Virus record (IMG/VR): IMGVR_UViG_3300032893_000143
Location: 1 to 40,209 of that record
Source of the DNA: a virus
DNA length: 40,209 bases
Strand: one strand, 5' to 3'
The notes beneath the pieces were generated by a model. The model saw only the letters and a list, made by a program, of their open reading frames with translations, searched no databases and had not been told where the DNA came from. The position numbers and the translations under genes were made by a program. This document shows, piece by piece, positions 2,854 through 35,670 of this stretch (positions are counted from its first letter, which is position 1; every line of letters begins with the position of its first letter).

Positions 2854-2963
2854 TCTGTGTATCCTGTACTGCCCTGTTAATATGGATTGTCTTTACGATT
2901 GCCGGTGCATTGATTGGGGCCGCCTTAGTCCCAGCCGGGCGCGGCAGCGAGGAGCAGGACTGA
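2850..2963 (+). CDS. Single-span membrane microprotein, 37 aa
   Basis: ATG 2850 follows the TAG at 2847-2849 directly, behind GGAGGGGG. The product is one hydrophobic helix (ALLIWIVFTIAGALIGAALV, about residues 8-27) after an N-terminal MVCVSCT and before the polar tail RGSEEQD. It is expected to sit in the inner membrane. Both flanks are the repeats that bracket the Cys-rich microgene, while the core is unrelated. Function unknown. Confidence 0.65.
   Translation: MVCVSCTALLIWIVFTIAGALIGAALVPAGRGSEEQD
2930..2957 (+). repeat. Repeat B, copy 2
   Basis: Second copy of the 28-base element at 2535-2562, with one mismatch. It carries the ribosome site of the next gene (ATG 2963). Confidence 0.85.
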
Positions 2964-3196
2964 TGGGATGGCTAAAGCGCGAGTTTGAGGCCGCCGACCG
3001 TGCGCTCAAACGGCTTCCGAAATGGCAGCAGAAACATTTGCGCTACATCATGTGCGGGAACGAGTGCCGGCACTGCGACGGCTTCGGGCGCGCCAGGCTA
3101 TACGAGCCGAGCATGGTTGCGTCGAATCCCTGGATTAGCGTGGCATGTTCCTGCGGCTGCCATCGACGCGGCGTCATGTGTGAGGAGAAGGGCTGA
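2963..3196 (+). CDS. Cysteine-rich zinc-binding-like protein, 77 aa
   Basis: Starts TGATG at 2963 behind GCGAGGAGC. The first half is a basic amphipathic helix (WLKREFEAADRALKRLPKW). The second half holds seven cysteines, with CGNECRHC near residue 33 and CSCGCHRRGVMC near residue 61, spaced like a treble-clef or DnaJ-type zinc site. A nucleic-acid or protein-binding zinc module is likely; no named family recognised. Confidence 0.75.
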   Translation: MGWLKREFEAADRALKRLPKWQQKHLRYIMCGNECRHCDGFGRARLYEPSMVASNPWISVACSCGCHRRGVMCEEKG

Positions 3197-3492
3197 TGGG
3201 CAAGAGTGCGAGAGAGGTGATTGCCGATCAGTTGGCTATATCCGTTCCCAATCCCGGTAGATATGCTGGGGATAACCCAGTCGCGGCCGAAATCCTGGCA
3301 TCCCTTGCCGCCGCCGGCTTCAACCCCCCGTCTCTCGCCGCGACACATGCGGTGGTGCCAAGGGAGCCGACGCAGCGCATGTGTCTGGCTGGTTACTATG
3401 CAGCGACCGTTCGCGAGGAGGCCGTTCCCATTATCTACCGCGCCATGCTAGCCGCCCAGGCGCCGCGCGAGCCGGAGGATGCCAATGGGTGA
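3196..3492 (+). CDS. Hypothetical protein, 98 aa
   Basis: TGATG start at 3196 with AGGAGAAGG upstream. The product is Ala/Pro-rich: MGKSAREVIADQLAISV, then a mostly helical C-terminal half (YYAATVREEAVPIIYRAMLAAQ). It has the general look of small early phage proteins with a 'VIADQLA...AAEILASLAAAGF' pattern. No motif, no membrane segment. Confidence 0.7.
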   Translation: MGKSAREVIADQLAISVPNPGRYAGDNPVAAEILASLAAAGFNPPSLAATHAVVPREPTQRMCLAGYYAATVREEAVPIIYRAMLAAQAPREPEDANG

Positions 3493-10047: not shown

Positions 10048-10207
10048 CGAACAGGTCCAGCTTGTTCTTCACGCCGAGGTAGCGCACGACCTCCCGAAAG
10101 ATCGCCTGGCGCTCCTTCAACTCCACACTATCCCCTTTTGCCGCTTTCAGCAATTCGGCGGCTTCCTTGTCGAGCTGGTCGACCAGCGGGTCTTTCTTCT
10201 TCCTCAT
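9695..10207 (-). CDS. Hypothetical acidic helical protein (only N-terminal part convincing)
   Basis: MRKKKDPLVDQLDKEAAELLKAAKG...REVVRYLGVKNKLDLFDEE...GGIAGFVQRLD reads like a real small phage protein for about the first 70 residues. The remaining 100 residues are Asp/Gly/Pro/Arg-rich and look like a shadow of the membrane gene 9664-10047 in the other frame. Either the frame stays open by chance, or ribosomes shift +1 into the membrane frame, or the contig has a one-base error here. ATG 10207 follows GTGA-coupled genes; the N-terminus is reliable. Confidence 0.55.
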   Translation of the reverse strand: MRKKKDPLVDQLDKEAAELLKAAKGDSVELKERQAIFREVVRYLGVKNKLDLFDEETEGGIAGFVQRLDTGTDHRTRPAETRTGHRGAGLAGSLGDHPATDGFGAAFADPRRDLHNPPNDRPDPERAPPPVDDPDGSGGDGDDGDDEPEPDDAGGAGDLLHTRGAANGLA

Positions 10208-10947
10208 CGGAATGGCTTCCTGCCGTAGATTCGGCTGTTGTCGTACATGAAGGTTCGGTGCGGGACCGCCGTCGTCACCATCCGGCCCTTTGCGGCCTTC
10301 TTGCTGCTCATGAAGCCGCCGTGATGGGGTGGATTGAACAGGTCGGTCGAGAACTCGATCCAGCTCCGAAGCGCCGTTGTGGTCGTCTCATCGGCAGGCA
10401 GATCGCCGGCCGCGCCGGGGTTCGAGTTGAAACTAATCACGCCGTTGTTGGCCGATGACGAGAGCGAGCGATAGCCGACCTCGATGACCAGCACGTCGCC
10501 GGCGAGCGCCTGGACCAACGTCAATGGCAATGTCGTTCCGGACGATCCTCTCGGGAACCCTCGGTTGGTCAGAGTCGACACCGCGAATTCGTGCGACAGG
10601 GCGCTGTTGTCGGGGCCAAAGAGCACGCCGCGCTGGGTCAGGCCGTCGCCGGAGAACACGCGAATCACGACCTGCGGGCAATAGTCGTTGCTTGCGCTCA
10701 CTTCGTTGGCGCGGATTTGCCCCGTGACGGTGCCCATGATGCGCTGGGCGGGTAGCGGCGCCGAAATGTACTGCGCGATCAGGCGGTTCTTGTTGGCAGC
10801 GCCTGGCCCGACAGGCGAGAGGGTAGTCGTGCCGCCAGATGGCACGGTGACGGCGGACGCGCGCTGCGCCGATGTCGTCACATCCCAGGCGGACGAGAAC
10901 GCCGGCGTGAGCGCGGTAGACGGGGTGCCGAGGTAGAACCGCGTCAC
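10204..10947 (-). CDS. Beta-rich virion structural protein, 247 aa
   Basis: The GTG start at 10947 overlaps the preceding TGA. The sequence alternates beta strands and loops without membrane segments (LIAQYISAPLPAQRIMGTVTGQIRANE, quoted in part), resembling a lectin or jelly-roll fold, followed by a basic tail (MSSKKAAKGRMVTTAVPHR). In podoviruses this slot after the ejection proteins often holds tail-fibre or head-decoration proteins. Role inferred from fold style and position. Confidence 0.7.
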   Translation of the reverse strand: MTRFYLGTPSTALTPAFSSAWDVTTSAQRASAVTVPSGGTTTLSPVGPGAANKNRLIAQYISAPLPAQRIMGTVTGQIRANEVSASNDYCPQVVIRVFSGDGLTQRGVLFGPDNSALSHEFAVSTLTNRGFPRGSSGTTLPLTLVQALAGDVLVIEVGYRSLSSSANNGVISFNSNPGAAGDLPADETTTTALRSWIEFSTDLFNPPHHGGFMSSKKAAKGRMVTTAVPHRTFMYDNSRIYGRKPFR

Positions 10948-13649
10948 TGTGGCCGCGGGCCGCGCCCGATCCCGGTTGGCAGACCCTGTTGGGGCGCCGG
11001 CATGCCGCCCGGTTGATCGGATGCCATGCTGTTGAGGAAGCTGCGCGACAGCAGTTTGAGTGCCTGACCGGCGTACATGGCGGACGGCCCGCCCTTCTCG
11101 AAGCCGGCCGACAGGAGGCGGATCGTCGTGGGCCGGTCGGCGAGCCAGCCGAAGAATGACCGCTTGATGTAAGCCAAGTCGGCGCGGATGCCGAAGGGCA
11201 CATGCGCCTTGATCTGCGCCGCGGCCAGCGAGCCGCCGAAATCCTGGCCGCCCTCGGCGGTGTCCCAGGGGAACAGGAACCGCGCCTCCTTGGCGACGTT
11301 CTTCAGGTCGTCCAGCAGGCCATCGGGGAATAGCAGCTCCTGCTGCTTCGGCGTGAACTTCGACAGCGCGTCGTCGATGCCAGACCCGCCGATCGTGCGC
11401 GTGCGCGACGGCAACTCCACCATCGCCTTCGATAGCAGCGACTTCAGCGCGTACTGGCGCACCTGTGCGACGGCATCCGGCCCGAGCTGGTTGAGCGCCG
11501 CTTCGAGCTTGGCCTCATTCCCCGGCTGGACGATGAACCGCATGGCGCGGTCGATCTGCGGCGGGCCGCCCTTCGTGAGCGCAGCCAGATAGTTCTTCGA
11601 CATGAAGTCGTCGAGCGCCTTCGTCTGTTCCAGGGCGTTCCTGATCGCGTTCGCGGGATCGCCGGATGCCAGGGCTTCGACCGAAATCTTGCCGTCGATG
11701 GCAGCCAACTGCTTGGCGTACTCGGTAACGCGGCCGGTGAATCCCTTGCCGAACACGGGGTCATAGACCAGCGATGGCAGGTTGCCGCGCTTGGTCAACT
11801 CGTTGAGGAGCGCGTCGCCCGTGATCTCCTTGGCGCCCGTTTCGCCGGTCGTGCGCGCCGCGTCTTTCAACAGACTTTGCGTGAACGCCGCAGCCACGTC
11901 GCGCTTCGTCTGCGGTGGCAGGATCGACAGAATCGTCTCGGCGCCCTTCTCCTTCCCCGGCTGCGCGATCAGGTCGGCGACCAAGCGCGGATCGAGGGGC
12001 GTGCCGGCGCGGGCCTGCTTGACGATGGACTGCATGGCGGCGTCTTTGTATTTCGCGATGCCATCGGCGTACATGGCGTCGGCCTTGCGCAGCAGGGCGA
12101 CAGCGCGCTCCGACGGAATCTCGAAGCCGGCCTTCTTCAGCTCGTTGAGGATGGCGCGCGTCTCGGGCGGATTCGCGAACATCGACTTGTCGAACGAATG
12201 ATCGGCCGCGCTGGCGGCCTCGCCCATCAGGTGGTTGTCGATGTCGGGCGTGATCCCGCCGTCGGCCAATTCGCGCAGGCGCGTGCGATACCGCTGCATC
12301 TGCTTGATCGATATAGCGTTCGGGAGTTCGGTGATCTCCTTGAAGATCGTCGGCAACCGTTCCGGCGGCAGCGACTTCACGATAGGCGCGATGGCGCGCT
12401 TCACCAGATAGGTCGGAATCACGGGCGCCCCGCCGGTCATGGCGTCGATCTGGTCGTAGACCGCGTTCATCCGCTGCCCGAATTGGCGGCGCGAAGTCAC
12501 GATGTCATTGGCGACCGTGCTGCCGAGGTCGTCGGGCGCCGTCTTCGCCAGGGCCTTTACCAGCTTGTCGGTCTTCCCGATCTCCGCTTGCGCGTCGGCC
12601 ATGGCGGCGTTGGCGTTGCCTTCGAGCCGGCCGTGGTATTGCGACACGTCATGCACGACGGCTTTCCCGGCCGACGTCGAGCTGATCGCCGCGCTCGTGT
12701 CGTCCAACTCGCTCATCATGCTGTTGATGGCGGTCTCGTCCAGGCCCTCGGACTTCAGCATCTGCTTGATTTCGTTCTGGATGTACTGGACGTTTCGCGC
12801 CTCCTGCGGGTTGCCGCGCAGCAGGTTGCGGAGCATCTGGTCATACTGGAACACCTTCGACTTCGGCGCCGCCGAGGCGATCGGTGGGCGCGCACCCTTG
12901 GCGAGCAGCGAGCGTGTCATCGCCTGACCTTGCGGCGTGGCGCCGCCGACGAACCTGCGAATCGCCGGTGCTATCGCCCCAGCGCCGGTCCCGATCAGTT
13001 CCCCGCCGGCTTGGAATGCCGCGTTCTCGACGCCCACCTTTGCCAAGGTGCCGGCTTCCTGCCCGGCCGTCTTCTTCCGCGCACCGATGGCCTGCTTGTA
13101 GAGTTCGTCAACCGCCTTGCCGAAGGCCGCGCCCGCGCCGGCCCCGACCACGGAGCCACCCGGCCCCATCTCCGATCCCGCCAAGCCGCCGCCGATAGCA
13201 CCCACTGTCACCGGCGCGGTCCCGAGCATGTCGGCGCCCACCGTGTTGAGCGAATAGGCGGCATTCACGGAGAGCTTCTTGTCGCCGACTTTCACCCACC
13301 ACCGGCCGCCCTTGTCCTGGCCGTAGTTGCCTTTGCCGTAGAGGTATTCGAGCACCGCCGCCTGTTCGTCGGGATTGTCGGCCTTCGCAAAAACCGACTG
13401 GTGCATGAACGGGATGCCCGTGTTGTAGTCGACATCGGGCGCATAGCCGAGCTTTTCCGCAACCTCCGACGTGATCCGCTGAATCGGCTTCCCGTGTGCC
13501 GCGAAGCCGGTCGATTCCGGCGTCATCGGCAGGTTTTCAGTCTTGTACGGTTTATCCGGATCGAACTTCGGCGCTTCCTTCGCCGCCGCATTGACGGGCG
13601 TGAACGGCTTCGCTGGATCGAAGGCGGGCGCGGCGGCTGTGTCGGCCAT
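10944..13649 (-). CDS. Large internal virion (ejection) protein, 901 aa
   Basis: The longest gene of the window. It opens with two copies of a FDPxKPF motif (FDPAKPFTPV, FDPDKPYKTE), common at the start of phage internal proteins. A glycine-zipper segment (GAIGGGLAGSEMGPGGSVVG, about residues 150-170) could insert in membranes, and about 600 residues of charged helix follow. Such proteins are packed in the capsid and ejected to form a DNA channel across the envelope, like T7 gp15/gp16. No lytic transglycosylase motif seen. It lies in the expected ejection cluster after 426-, 306- and 265-residue proteins. Confidence 0.8.
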   Translation of the reverse strand: MADTAAAPAFDPAKPFTPVNAAAKEAPKFDPDKPYKTENLPMTPESTGFAAHGKPIQRITSEVAEKLGYAPDVDYNTGIPFMHQSVFAKADNPDEQAAVLEYLYGKGNYGQDKGGRWWVKVGDKKLSVNAAYSLNTVGADMLGTAPVTVGAIGGGLAGSEMGPGGSVVGAGAGAAFGKAVDELYKQAIGARKKTAGQEAGTLAKVGVENAAFQAGGELIGTGAGAIAPAIRRFVGGATPQGQAMTRSLLAKGARPPIASAAPKSKVFQYDQMLRNLLRGNPQEARNVQYIQNEIKQMLKSEGLDETAINSMMSELDDTSAAISSTSAGKAVVHDVSQYHGRLEGNANAAMADAQAEIGKTDKLVKALAKTAPDDLGSTVANDIVTSRRQFGQRMNAVYDQIDAMTGGAPVIPTYLVKRAIAPIVKSLPPERLPTIFKEITELPNAISIKQMQRYRTRLRELADGGITPDIDNHLMGEAASAADHSFDKSMFANPPETRAILNELKKAGFEIPSERAVALLRKADAMYADGIAKYKDAAMQSIVKQARAGTPLDPRLVADLIAQPGKEKGAETILSILPPQTKRDVAAAFTQSLLKDAARTTGETGAKEITGDALLNELTKRGNLPSLVYDPVFGKGFTGRVTEYAKQLAAIDGKISVEALASGDPANAIRNALEQTKALDDFMSKNYLAALTKGGPPQIDRAMRFIVQPGNEAKLEAALNQLGPDAVAQVRQYALKSLLSKAMVELPSRTRTIGGSGIDDALSKFTPKQQELLFPDGLLDDLKNVAKEARFLFPWDTAEGGQDFGGSLAAAQIKAHVPFGIRADLAYIKRSFFGWLADRPTTIRLLSAGFEKGGPSAMYAGQALKLLSRSFLNSMASDQPGGMPAPQQGLPTGIGRGPRPQ

Positions 13650-17854: not shown

Positions 17855-18895
17855 CTAGTCGATCTGCGTGAGCGTGAGACGGAAATTCCAGTCCGCCGTG
17901 GTGATCGCCGCGACGGCGCCGCCGCCCTTGGGAACGACCGCCGTGGCGGCGTTGGCGGTCGCGGCGCCGTAGTTCGTGTTATCGACAAAGACCGACACGC
18001 CGCCGCCCGAGTTCGTCGTCACCGCGTCGAAATCCACGATGTCGCCGGGACTATACCCCTGATTGGCGATGGTGTTAACGAGCCTGATCCGCATGTCGCC
18101 GGGCACGACATCCAGGCTGTGCGGCAGCGGGCCGGTGACGGTCGAGATCGTCGTCACGAAATCGGCGCCGGTGAAGCTGCGCTTGCCCTTCCATGACCAG
18201 ATGGCCGGAGCACCGCCGTCGCAGACGAGCGTGCCGCCGTCGCTGGCCGACGGCAGGTGGATCGTCGTCAACTGCACGCCACCGGACAGGATTTTGTCGG
18301 TGCCGTTGGCGGTGATGGCGACGACGCCGGTATTGATGTTGAGAATCTGGACGTTGAAGCCGTTGCCGGCGGCGACACCGCTCGGGAGGCTGAAGATGTG
18401 CGCGGCGGCGCTGTTCATGCGCAGTTCGGCGCCGCGGTCGGCAGGCAGAATCGTATAGTCGCCCGTCTTCGTCGAGACGAACGCGGCGTATCCCGTCACG
18501 GCCTGCACGACGGGCGCCACGATCTCGAAGCCGCCGGTGCCGCCGTTGAGCGCCTGGTTGAAGGCGATGATGTAGAAGACGCCGGCCACGATGTCGCCCG
18601 CGTTCGCCTGCGTCGTTCCGTTCGCCAGATAGACGCTGAGCGGGCCGAGGCCGCTATAGGCGGCGGTGACGGCGCCGGTCGAGGTGTTGAGCGCGACGAA
18701 GCTGAATAGCTGATAGTTGTTGTAGGCGCTGATGACCGGCGTGCCGGCGAGCGGCGTCAGCGCGATGGCGTTCGTCCCGGTCGCCGTGTTCGGGATGACC
18801 GAGAGAACGGCGATGGCGTTGAAATTGTCGTCGAGCCATGAGCCCGGAACCTGCGAGCCGCCGACGACCGTTCCGAAGATATGCGGGAGCGCCAT
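17855..18895 (-). CDS. Tail fibre or tail tip protein, 346 aa
   Basis: MALPHIFGTVVGGSQVPGSWLDDNFNAI is a typical opening of phage fibre proteins ('...vpaswLDdNFna...'). The rest is beta-rich with low charge (ILPADRGAELRMNSAAAHIFSL, IWSWKGKRSFTGADF; pieces quoted). This start motif is often a particle-binding region. It follows the nozzle gene, so it may form the side fibres or the tail needle. Role inferred. Confidence 0.75.
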   Translation of the reverse strand: MALPHIFGTVVGGSQVPGSWLDDNFNAIAVLSVIPNTATGTNAIALTPLAGTPVISAYNNYQLFSFVALNTSTGAVTAAYSGLGPLSVYLANGTTQANAGDIVAGVFYIIAFNQALNGGTGGFEIVAPVVQAVTGYAAFVSTKTGDYTILPADRGAELRMNSAAAHIFSLPSGVAAGNGFNVQILNINTGVVAITANGTDKILSGGVQLTTIHLPSASDGGTLVCDGGAPAIWSWKGKRSFTGADFVTTISTVTGPLPHSLDVVPGDMRIRLVNTIANQGYSPGDIVDFDAVTTNSGGGVSVFVDNTNYGAATANAATAVVPKGGGAVAAITTADWNFRLTLTQID

Positions 18896-18896
18896 G

Positions 18897-20960
18897 TCAG
18901 ATTCCTAGCGTTGCGTGGTTCTTATAGCCGATCGCCGTCGCGACGATGGTAAAATCCTCGCTCGTCGAGTTGATGGTCTCGCCGATCAAGAGGCCATACT
19001 GCTCCGCGGCCTGCCCGGTGATGGCGGCGCCCGTGGCGCCCCAGGTGAACGTCTGCGACAGGTTGTTGATCCAGGTGAACACCTGCCCGCCGTTGTTGAT
19101 CCAGGAGAACGTCGAGTTGGCGTTGACCTGGATCGTGTTCGGCGTCGTCTGCGTGTCCAGCGTCACCGTGAGGGCAACGCCGAGGCCGCTGTTGTCCTCA
19201 AGCTGGGTATAGAACGCCAGCACCTGCTTGTAGACGATGAAGCCGTCGCCCGACCACAGCTTGGACTGCGCGATCTTCGGCAATACGAGGTTCGGCGTGT
19301 TGAACAGCGGGAACAGCGTCGCCCCATCGGTGCCCCAGGCCAGCGGCTGCGACTGCTGCATCTCCGTCGCGATGAAGGTCAGCGACTTGGTTTGCGAACC
19401 GACAAACCAGGTCTGCCCGTCGAAGCAGACCATGGCATTGCGAGTCAGGCCGGTGAAGGGATCAAGGATCGGAATGAGGCAGCAGTAGCATTTGATCTCG
19501 TAGAGCGTCGCGATGCAGGCGGACGGCTCCGCGATGTCGGTGGCGTGCCGGTTCGGCACGGCCAGGAATATGCCGTCCAGCTTCTCGCTGATCTTCTCGG
19601 CCGTGCCGCCGAACAGGCCATAGATGCCCGTCTCGTTGGCGAACATGAGCGAGCGGCCAAACGCTTGCACGGTATCGCGCCAGGGCGTGCCGTTCTCGGG
19701 GTCGGTGTTGGCGTTGTTGAACGAAGTCGTCACCGGCGAGCCCGCCGTCTGCACGTTGCTGATGACCTGGATCGAGGAATCGCCGAACGGATAGAGATAG
19801 CCGTTCGCCTGCTTGATCGCCGGGAAATGCACCTTGAGGAAATTGTCGGTCGATTGCACCGTGCCGCCGCCGGCCGAGGTTGCGAAGATGTCGAACAGGC
19901 CTGGGGCCGAGAAGGTGATGGTGTCGTTGTTGGTGATCCACACCCGCGACTGGAACGTCTCGATGGCCGTGCCGACGAGTCCGATGGGCATCGGGTTGAT
20001 GACGGCCTCGGCCAGCCGCAGGTTGTCGCCCGCGGCAGCCTTGATGATGACCGTGGGCGCCGTCAGGTAGCCGTCGCCGCCGTTCGTCACCGTGAACCCG
20101 GTCACGGAGCCGCCGCCGACCGTGGCCGTGGCCGTGGCCCCGGCACCGCTGCCCCCGACGATGATCACCGTGGGCGGCAGCGTGTAGCCGGTGCCGCCGG
20201 CCGCGTCGAGCACGATGGACGTGACCACCTTGCCCGTCAGGACGGCGTGGCCGCGCGCCGTGTTATCGAAAGGCTGGCCGCCGTCGAGGATGATGTTGAT
20301 GAAGTCGCCAGCAGGAACGCCGCTGCCGGGATTGGTGATCGTCACGCCGGTCACGGCGCCATTCGAGACGGTAGCCGTCGCCGCAAATCCTGTGACGGCG
20401 ACGCCGCCCCCACGCGTGGCGCTGACGGTCGGAGCGCCGGTGTAGCCGGTGCCGGATTTCGTGATCGTGACGATGGGCGAAACCGTGCCGGGGCCGAACA
20501 GCAGCGTGCCGTTCCAGACCCAATAGCCGAGCTGCGAGACGATCAGCAGGTATTGCGCGCCCCACTGGCTGCAGCCGGGCCGCTCGTTGCCGGCGACCCA
20601 GAACGTGCCGGCGACCGCGGAGATCGGCGTCACCGCGCCGTCGCTGATGCGGACCTGATCGGCCGTGCCGTCGTTCAAAAAGACGGCGTGATAGAAGGTC
20701 GCGCCGATGTTGAACGGGAAGAACGAGATGATCGTGCGCCCGCCTGACGGCGTGTAGAGATCGGCGCCGTTGTCCGGCGTGGTCCGCAGGTTGCCGGCGC
20801 CGATGCGCAGGAAGTTCTCCTGCCACGACAGTTCCTGGTCGTCGATGGCCGAGCGGGCATCCTTGGTGTTGAGACCCTTGGTCTGCGACAGCGAGAACGT
20901 CTTGAATTCCGCCGGCAGGCCGGGGAACTGCTTGCTCTCCTTTGGCGGGGCTGGGGGCAT
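18897..20960 (-). CDS. Tail nozzle / hub protein with inserted beta repeats, 687 aa
   Basis: The start LSQTKGLNTKDARSAIDDQELSWQ, and later ETFQSRVWITNNDTITFSAPG and GTPWRDTVQAFGRSLMFANETG, follow the beta-propeller tail proteins (T7 gp12-like / P22 gp10-like) that close the short tail. Between about residues 155 and 310 there are three or four GxGYxxxP beta units (GTGYTGAPTVS, GTGYTLPPTVIIVGG, GDGYLTAPTVII) that look like an insertion of the module found in neighbouring virion genes. Length is close to other nozzles once the insert is removed. Confidence 0.8.
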   Translation of the reverse strand: MPPAPPKESKQFPGLPAEFKTFSLSQTKGLNTKDARSAIDDQELSWQENFLRIGAGNLRTTPDNGADLYTPSGGRTIISFFPFNIGATFYHAVFLNDGTADQVRISDGAVTPISAVAGTFWVAGNERPGCSQWGAQYLLIVSQLGYWVWNGTLLFGPGTVSPIVTITKSGTGYTGAPTVSATRGGGVAVTGFAATATVSNGAVTGVTITNPGSGVPAGDFINIILDGGQPFDNTARGHAVLTGKVVTSIVLDAAGGTGYTLPPTVIIVGGSGAGATATATVGGGSVTGFTVTNGGDGYLTAPTVIIKAAAGDNLRLAEAVINPMPIGLVGTAIETFQSRVWITNNDTITFSAPGLFDIFATSAGGGTVQSTDNFLKVHFPAIKQANGYLYPFGDSSIQVISNVQTAGSPVTTSFNNANTDPENGTPWRDTVQAFGRSLMFANETGIYGLFGGTAEKISEKLDGIFLAVPNRHATDIAEPSACIATLYEIKCYCCLIPILDPFTGLTRNAMVCFDGQTWFVGSQTKSLTFIATEMQQSQPLAWGTDGATLFPLFNTPNLVLPKIAQSKLWSGDGFIVYKQVLAFYTQLEDNSGLGVALTVTLDTQTTPNTIQVNANSTFSWINNGGQVFTWINNLSQTFTWGATGAAITGQAAEQYGLLIGETINSTSEDFTIVATAIGYKNHATLGI

Positions 20961-33875: not shown

Positions 33876-33946
33876 GGTAACCAGGTAACCGCGGTAACTG
33901 GTCTTGGTATGGTTACCTCCGGTTACCAGCGGTTACCCCGGTTACC
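33876..33946. repeat. Iteron-like array GGTAACC / GGTTACC (7 sites), possible origin
   Basis: Three sites in one orientation (GGTAACC at 33876 and 33884, GGTAACt at 33893) are followed by four of the reverse complement (GGTTACC at 33911, 33921, 33931, 33940). The last four are 10, 10 and 9 bases apart, close to one helical turn. The array lies between convergent gene ends and 8 bp from the stop of the RepA-type helicase gene. It fits an iteron origin or the binding sites of its initiator. As RNA it could also fold into a long imperfect hairpin that ends both operons. Confidence 0.75.
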
Positions 33947-33954
33947 GATTTGAG

Positions 33955-35004
33955 CTAGACCGTTCTAATCACGTAGTATTTTCCGTTCGCGAGGCGGCTT
34001 ATCTCGCCGCTCTTGGCCATCTTCGCAAGCAATACTTTAACATTGGCATATTTCCCACTGATCGCGCTCGCTATTTCGGTCGGCGTCATCGTTTCGCCGC
34101 TGTCGTAGAGCAATTTTATTATCTGCCGGCGCTCCTCCGACTTGCGGAAATCGGTAGCCGGCCCAAGCAGCGTCACACACCCCGTGTCGCGGTCGAATTG
34201 CAACGCCACCTCCCTCTCCGCCACGTCCCGCCCGCGCACATGCAGCGTCCCGTTCGGATCGTTCGCTGCCCGTTCCAATACCAGCGTAGTGTCACAGGCG
34301 CCGGTTAACCCCATCGTCCCGCTGATCCGCATCACCGGATCGTCAGCACCCGTCTTGTTGGTGTGGTGAACCAGCAGCATGGCTAGGTTGTGATCCTTGG
34401 CGAGCTGGTGAAATGGCGCCATGTGCGCGTAATCCTGATCGTAAATCCCCTTCCGCTGGTCCTGAATCCCCTTGATCTTGGCGAGCACATCGACAATGAC
34501 GAGCCGCGGATTTTCGCGCGACTGTATCCAACCGTCGATGTCCCCAATCCCTCCGTCGTCGACCGAGCGCCAGGTCGTGGCGACCTCCAGCAACTCCGGT
34601 ATCCGGCCGCCCTGCCGGATCGCCAGCGACCGCTCCTTGATCCGCCGCTCGCTATCTTCCAGCGCCAGGTAAAGCACCGCTCCAGGCTCACAGCCGACGT
34701 TCCCAAGGGCCACTGAGCCCGCCGCCACTGCAATGGCCCAATCCAGCACGATGAAGCTCTTGCCCCGGCTTTTAGGCCCTCCGAGGATCGTCAGGCCCTC
34801 CGGCACGAATCCCGGCACCGCCCAGCGGATCGCCGGATGCTCCGTGACCACGATCTCCGTGAGCTTGCGCACCGGCAACGGCTCCGTCCGGTAGCCGTTC
34901 GCCTTGAATACCGCAGCAGCTTTTCGGTAGTTGGCCTCGAATGTGCCGCTGTTGGACTTGACAGCAAACGGCGGACGACCCCCCGGCTTGTCCCCGAATG
35001 CCAC
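33955..35004 (-). CDS. RepA-type hexameric replicative helicase, 349 aa
   Basis: RecA-fold ATPase of the AAA_25 / plasmid RepA kind. Walker A GGPKSRGKS (75-83), catalytic Glu116 in LYLALEDSERR, Walker B RLVIVDVL (167-174), and sensor-like LVHHTNK (211-217). The C-terminal 60 residues (RRQIIKLLYDSGETMTPTEIA...) form a winged-helix domain that can bind DNA. It would unwind the origin and recruit host replication proteins, as the genome has no polymerase or primase. GTG 35004 follows AAGGGA. The iteron array begins just past its end. Confidence 0.85.
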   Translation of the reverse strand: MAFGDKPGGRPPFAVKSNSGTFEANYRKAAAVFKANGYRTEPLPVRKLTEIVVTEHPAIRWAVPGFVPEGLTILGGPKSRGKSFIVLDWAIAVAAGSVALGNVGCEPGAVLYLALEDSERRIKERSLAIRQGGRIPELLEVATTWRSVDDGGIGDIDGWIQSRENPRLVIVDVLAKIKGIQDQRKGIYDQDYAHMAPFHQLAKDHNLAMLLVHHTNKTGADDPVMRISGTMGLTGACDTTLVLERAANDPNGTLHVRGRDVAEREVALQFDRDTGCVTLLGPATDFRKSEERRQIIKLLYDSGETMTPTEIASAISGKYANVKVLLAKMAKSGEISRLANGKYYVIRTV

Positions 35005-35190: not shown

Positions 35191-35523
35191 CTACGCAGCC
35201 TCGGCGCTATCCCTCGCCTGTTCCAAATCCTGCCGCCATGCCGCCCGCTGCGCCACGATCTGCGGATGACACCCCTTCACGAACTCCCCGCAAAACCAGT
35301 CGTAGTCGGTTACTGGATAAGTGTCCGAAATGTGTACGGCGACCGGCTCCTGGCCCATCGCCCGCCACGGCGCATGACGGCGGCACATGCCCCATCGGCG
35401 CGGCTCGCCGTCCTGAAGATCGAAATAGAATGAACATCCGGCACAAGCCGCAATGTCCGAATCGGCAAGCCGCTCAACCGCGTTGAGGGTTTGCAAATGA
35501 CGTAATGCGAGCATCGGGGTCAT
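35191..35523 (-). CDS. Conserved Cys-rich phage protein, 110 aa
   Basis: ATG 35523 follows GAGGAG at 6-7 bases. Cys27 and Cys30 (ACAGC) lie in the N-terminal half, and GMCRRH and DWFCGEF supply two more Cys and a His, a likely zinc site. The end DYDWFCGEF resembles a motif I recall from small alphaproteobacterial and phage proteins. Translation is probably controlled by the structured leader upstream. Biochemical function unknown. Confidence 0.78.
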   Translation of the reverse strand: MTPMLALRHLQTLNAVERLADSDIAACAGCSFYFDLQDGEPRRWGMCRRHAPWRAMGQEPVAVHISDTYPVTDYDWFCGEFVKGCHPQIVAQRAAWRQDLEQARDSAEAA

Positions 35524-35529
35524 GGCAGT

Positions 35530-35640
35530 CTCCTCAAGTTCCCGCTGTCGATGCCGGCCTTGAGGAAACCGGCACCGACGAGGCGGGGGTTGTCCCTAAG
35601 CTGGCGCCAGGGAAGCCGGTAGCTAGCCGGCGTGACAACC
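35530..35640 (-). ncRNA. Structured leader RNA with ribosome-site complement (riboswitch-like)
   Basis: Minus-strand transcript, 5' to 3'. Stem A: GGTTGTC with GACAACC (35640-35634 / 35594-35588), enclosing a GCCGG...CCGGC hairpin and a CTGGCGCCAG element. Stem B: GTCGGTGCCGG with CCGGCATCGAC (35579-35569 / 35557-35547), 11 pairs with one G-U, plus CCCGC/GCGGG below. Its loop holds TCCTCAAG (35566-35559), complementary over 8 nt to CTTGAGGA (35538-35531), which contains the ribosome site of the 110-residue gene. So the gene can be opened or closed by refolding. It matches no riboswitch class I know. Confidence 0.65.
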
Positions 35641-35664
35641 AGCAAAGCCTATATCAGATCACCG

Positions 35665-35670
35665 TGTCAA
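35665..35670 (-). promoter_or_regulatory. TTGACA -35 box of the leader transcript
   Basis: On the minus strand TTGACA lies 24 bases before the first base of stem A, right for transcription to begin at the start of the leader. The -10 box is weak: CTTTGC at 17 bases, or TATAGG at 11 bases (too close). Alphaproteobacterial -10 boxes are loose, so the promoter is plausible. Confidence 0.4.

Follow-up and report, generated by a model that had tools for sequence, protein, structure and literature searches.

A candidate Shine-Dalgarno-masking pseudoknot in the leader of a phage replication block

The leader and the genes behind it

The window analyzed here is a 40.2-kb virus record, taken at its full length of 40,209 nt. 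A tightly packed block of minus-strand genes in it is interrupted by a gap of about 150 nt, which is occupied by a leader of about the same length. All of the leader features lie on the minus strand. The elements that a sequence-only reading had named were all present at their minus-strand coordinates, including the 8-nt complement between a hairpin loop and the Shine-Dalgarno (SD) region:

35670-35665, minus strand: TTGACA box, letters present
35588-35640, minus strand: Domain I, a 7-bp stem of GGTTGTC (35640-35634) and GACAACC (35594-35588) with two small hairpins inside
35541-35587, minus strand: main hairpin (CCCGC + 11 bp / 11 bp + GCGGG), the putative pseudoknot stem S1
35568-35558, minus strand: 11-nt hairpin loop, TTTCCTCAAGG
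35559-35566, minus strand: anti-SD TCCTCAAG in the hairpin loop, the 5' side of the putative S2
35531-35538, minus strand: SD region CTTGAGGA, the 3' side of the putative S2, 7 nt ahead of the ATG at 35523
35191-35523, minus strand: gene of a 110-aa Cys protein, the candidate regulated gene, with four conserved Cys (C27, C30, C47 and C78)
33955-35004, minus strand: AAA_25 (RepA/DnaB-like) helicase (PF13481, 1.1e-27), farther downstream in the conserved block

A -10 element matching the TTGACA box was looked for at 16-18 nt spacing and none was found, so the promoter is unproven. Domain I folds at -23.1 kcal/mol (z -2.1 relative to shuffles), which is a modest stability excess only, and it is possibly a sensor or spacer domain. 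The main hairpin folds at -32.6 kcal/mol (z -6.4), and none of 500 dinucleotide shuffles was as stable. Its outer strands, CCCGC (35587-35583) and GCGGG (35545-35541), enclose an 11-bp stem with one G-U pair (35579-35569 with 35557-35547). In the pseudoknot-free fold, additional U-A and U-G closure (three weak pairs) shrinks the loop to a CCUCA pentaloop. The loop segment TCCTCAAG is the exact reverse complement of CTTGAGGA over 8 nt. A search of the leader for an intrinsic terminator or attenuator found no terminator-like site and no U-run; the stem is followed by AACTTGAGGA.

The 110-aa Cys protein is probably metal-binding. Searches of Pfam, PHROGs and NCBIfam gave no family match, and its AlphaFold model is poor (pLDDT 48).

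A related phage and its leader

Searching IMG/VR with the helicase gave a single close relative, L002, whose helicase is 66% identical to that of the window; L002 was therefore retrieved by its helicase and was unselected for its leader. The L002 Cys protein is about 50% identical to that of the window, the gene order is the same, another small upstream gene is common to both (about 34%), and the intergenic gap measures about 125-150 nt in both. The L002 leader has no recognizable sequence similarity to the window leader, yet it follows the same plan:

2433-2469: stem domain, TGGCCG/CGGCCA enclosing TGGCGG/CCGCCA (z -2.7), positioned as Domain I
2470-2513: stable hairpin abutting the stem domain (z -4.2)
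2491-2498: anti-SD CTCCCTGA, in a 12-nt loop
2514-2521: linker of 8 nt from stem to SD (2 nt in the window)
2522-2529: SD TCAGGGAG, 6 nt ahead of the ATG (7 nt in the window)

The segment CTCCCTGA is exactly complementary over 8 nt to the different SD of its own leader, TCAGGGAG. A MAFFT alignment of the two leaders was structurally useless, so their pairs were matched up manually; of the 8 loop/SD pairs, taken in order along the loop, 6 had changed on both sides. Its register in the loop is nearly the same in the two leaders: the anti-SD starts 2-3 nt past the stem's 5' strand and stops 1 nt short of the 3' strand. No covariance model was built, because two sequences would merely restate themselves. 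The structure potential, the loop/SD pairing and its compensatory survival in one relative can thus be read from the letters of the two leaders. The sequence-only reading had proposed a cis-acting minus-strand leader RNA whose loop can mask the ribosome site, and the pairing kept in L002 supports this. It had also named, as evidence against itself, relatives that keep the gene and lose the complementarity; in L002 the complementarity is retained with its letters changed.

The conservation of the loop/SD pairing rests on two natural examples, the window and L002. Peptide and degenerate DNA patterns for the Cys protein found relatives among viral contigs in the L002 contig only, and none were found in bacterial and archaeal species genomes, phages or plasmids. 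At a weak match in G002, no query-like open frame was seen. The other helicase relatives, L003, L004 and L008, reach only 26-29% identity, and no Cys-protein homolog showed up in their contigs.

The two genomes were also compared outside the leader. Directly 3' of the helicase, both carry a repeat array (33876-33946 in the window, where the helicase stop is at 33955 on the minus strand; 4427-4495 in L002). The arrays have a common plan in different letters, namely four direct copies (GGTAACC; TGTTGG) about 9-10 bp apart, followed by inverted copies (GGTTACC; CCAACA) about 8 bp apart. All six copies of GGTWACC in the 40-kb window fall inside its array. The arrays are possibly iteron-type origins or operators. 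Between its Cys-protein and helicase genes, L002 carries a 161-aa DNA-methyltransferase-like gene (2865-3350; weak MethyltransfD12 match, DPPY motif); the window lacks one at this position. Outside the replication block, the window's minus-strand frames at 10207-11514 and 17858-18904 have homologs in the L002 contig (55% and 36%), and the window terminase has no detectable homolog in the L002 contig. As judged from these sequences, the two genomes look mosaic, since scattered frames are shared but the terminase is not.

Weighing the explanations

We consider it probable that the leader forms a conserved H-type pseudoknot, which sequesters the SD and thereby limits translation of the 110-aa Cys protein. 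The loop of the main hairpin would present the anti-SD and pair with the SD just downstream, forming the pseudoknot. This would block 30S binding and lower translation of the Cys protein, the first product of the phage replication block. Forming the pseudoknot in the window would require the outer CCCGC/GCGGG pairs to open, giving an 8-nt linker. We infer that some signal relieves or reinforces it.

The calculated energies are compatible with such pairing. The loop/SD duplexes come to -14.7 kcal/mol in the window and -14.6 kcal/mol in L002, and the same SDs paired with an assumed 16S 3' tail sequence come to -8.6 and -9.9 kcal/mol. By a crude energy sum, the window pseudoknot (about -33.6 kcal/mol) is roughly equal to the plain hairpin (-32.6 kcal/mol), and the L002 pseudoknot (-36.7 kcal/mol) is clearly favored over its plain hairpin (-28.2 kcal/mol). 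Once the outer 5-bp stem has opened, the window pseudoknot would consist of S1 of 11 bp, L1 of 2 nt, S2 of 8 bp, 1 nt and the 8-nt linker. A stem 1 of 11 bp together with a 2-nt loop 1 and an 8-nt loop 2 approaches the geometry of the minimal IBV frameshifting pseudoknot, so the window pseudoknot is sterically possible.

A bistable switch, in which the leader toggles between an open and a closed SD because the outer CCCGC/GCGGG stem and the pseudoknot are mutually exclusive, is rather unlikely. The sequence-only reading had proposed competing states of this kind, and for the window this part stands: the 2-nt linker forbids the full stem and the pseudoknot at once, and the crude energies of the two are about equal. 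It does not extend to L002, where the 8-nt linker lets the full stem and the pseudoknot fit together, and the feature is thus unconserved. Since the L002 linker needs no competition, the conserved part is taken to be the masking of the SD.

Coincidence, a stable GC-rich hairpin that carries the SD complement by chance, is unlikely, and its frequency was estimated. The sample comprised 2230 start codons that have an SD-like sequence and begin an open reading frame; the window and the L002 contig contributed to it alongside other phage DNA. Ten of these starts fit a loosely defined layout (an 8-nt SD complement in a loop of 9-14 nt, on a stem of 5 bp or more); two were the window and L002 leaders, and among the remaining eight no contiguous stem exceeds 6 bp. 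The background rate is therefore 8/2228, or 0.36% of the other ribosome-site-like starts. When the leader was shuffled around a fixed SD, a hairpin loop acquired an 8-nt complement in 0.07% of the window shuffles and 0.33% of the L002 shuffles; of 20,000 L002 shuffles, 0.17% had the layout with the loop register unchanged. Because L002 was not chosen by its leader, these rates come close to fair single-test probabilities. They fall short of overwhelming, having two sequences behind them, and since the SD is itself constrained, some of the pairing traces to a single shared motif. That chance 8-nt loop/SD complements occur at about 0.4% of starts, and that the feature was picked from a search of the whole window, leave coincidence some room. 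Nevertheless, the unselected ortholog has the same layout in the same register, and both hairpins are unusually stable (z -6.4 and -4.2).

Quite unlikely is a riboswitch in which Domain I, on binding a small molecule or ion, stabilizes or breaks the anti-SD/SD docking of the neighboring hairpin. Aptamers are normally the most conserved part of riboswitches. The stem domain is similarly placed in both leaders, but it differs between the phages in sequence, with no similarity detected, and in inner layout (two inner hairpins in the window, one in L002; two sequences only), and the leader has no Rfam match. In favor of this explanation, a separate stem domain followed by an SD-docking hairpin resembles the preQ1-III expression platform (PMC11625349).

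A DNA-level element, with the nested inverted repeats serving as the operator of a repressor or contributing to a replication origin beside the helicase gene, is very improbable: inverted repeats are common near replication genes and both phages have a separate repeat array 3' of the helicase, but the SD pairing is kept though the letters are almost wholly different between the phages, and one stem pair is standard only in the minus-strand RNA.

The SD-masking pseudoknot remains our preferred explanation, and as judged from the two leaders it is probably a real translation brake. A translation brake under selection, acting on a replication module, would leave just this trace: pairing that survives near-complete change of its letters. 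As to the signal, a protein of the phage or its host is our best guess, and the Cys protein might itself serve as autoregulator; we think a small-molecule ligand less likely, since Domain I differs too much between the two phages to resemble an aptamer. More tentatively, and with considerable doubt, the leader may represent a new phage class in which a Domain I sensor or the Cys4 protein controls docking of the loop on the SD and so sets the output of the replication block. To our knowledge, few phage mRNAs are under the control of a leader pseudoknot. Sequence-based family searches would miss leaders of this kind because their sequence is not conserved; pattern searches for loop/SD complementarity ahead of genes could find more.

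Comparison with known systems

At gathering scores, Rfam 15 gave no riboswitch or leader family match in the window, including preQ1-III, preQ1-II, SAM-II and SAM-V, and permissive Rfam scans of both leaders returned chance-level matches only, to miRNA, lncRNA and sRNA families. With a loop/SD complement and compensatory change in one relative, the leader has the tested features of an SD-masking pseudoknot leader, as far as the sequences indicate. Its mode of action would resemble that of the known anti-SD/SD platforms, yet it falls in none of the classes described. The nearest system in layout is the preQ1-III platform; in biological setting, it is the leader of gene 32 in T4-type phages.

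In preQ1-III (RF02680), the loop of hairpin P4 docks on the downstream SD and forms the aSDS-SDS helix P5 (PMC11625349). The window leader likewise has a separate domain and then a hairpin with an SD-docking loop. Unlike preQ1-III, it has no recognized HLout pseudoknot aptamer and no Rfam match, and it does not precede a queuosine gene. It would also cover the whole SD core, whereas preQ1-III buries only the first two bases. Among the H-type pseudoknot riboswitches that bury the SD, preQ1-I type III, SAM-V and SAM/SAH form helix 2 between the hairpin loop and the SD, as the window leader would; in contrast to these, stem 1 in the window is far longer, and conserved loop letters, an Rfam match and a metabolic gene are lacking.

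The zinc protein gp32 represses its own translation, and the gene 32 leader of T4, T2 and RB69 contains a pseudoknot; a 2010 review considered gene 32 perhaps the sole viral case of a pseudoknot in translational autoregulation (PMC3014915). The window shares with these phages a candidate leader pseudoknot on the mRNA of a replication protein, with autoregulation putative here. In T4 the pseudoknot sits 67 nt upstream, and its role is limited to nucleating the binding of gp32 across an unstructured site, whereas the window pseudoknot would itself cover the SD.
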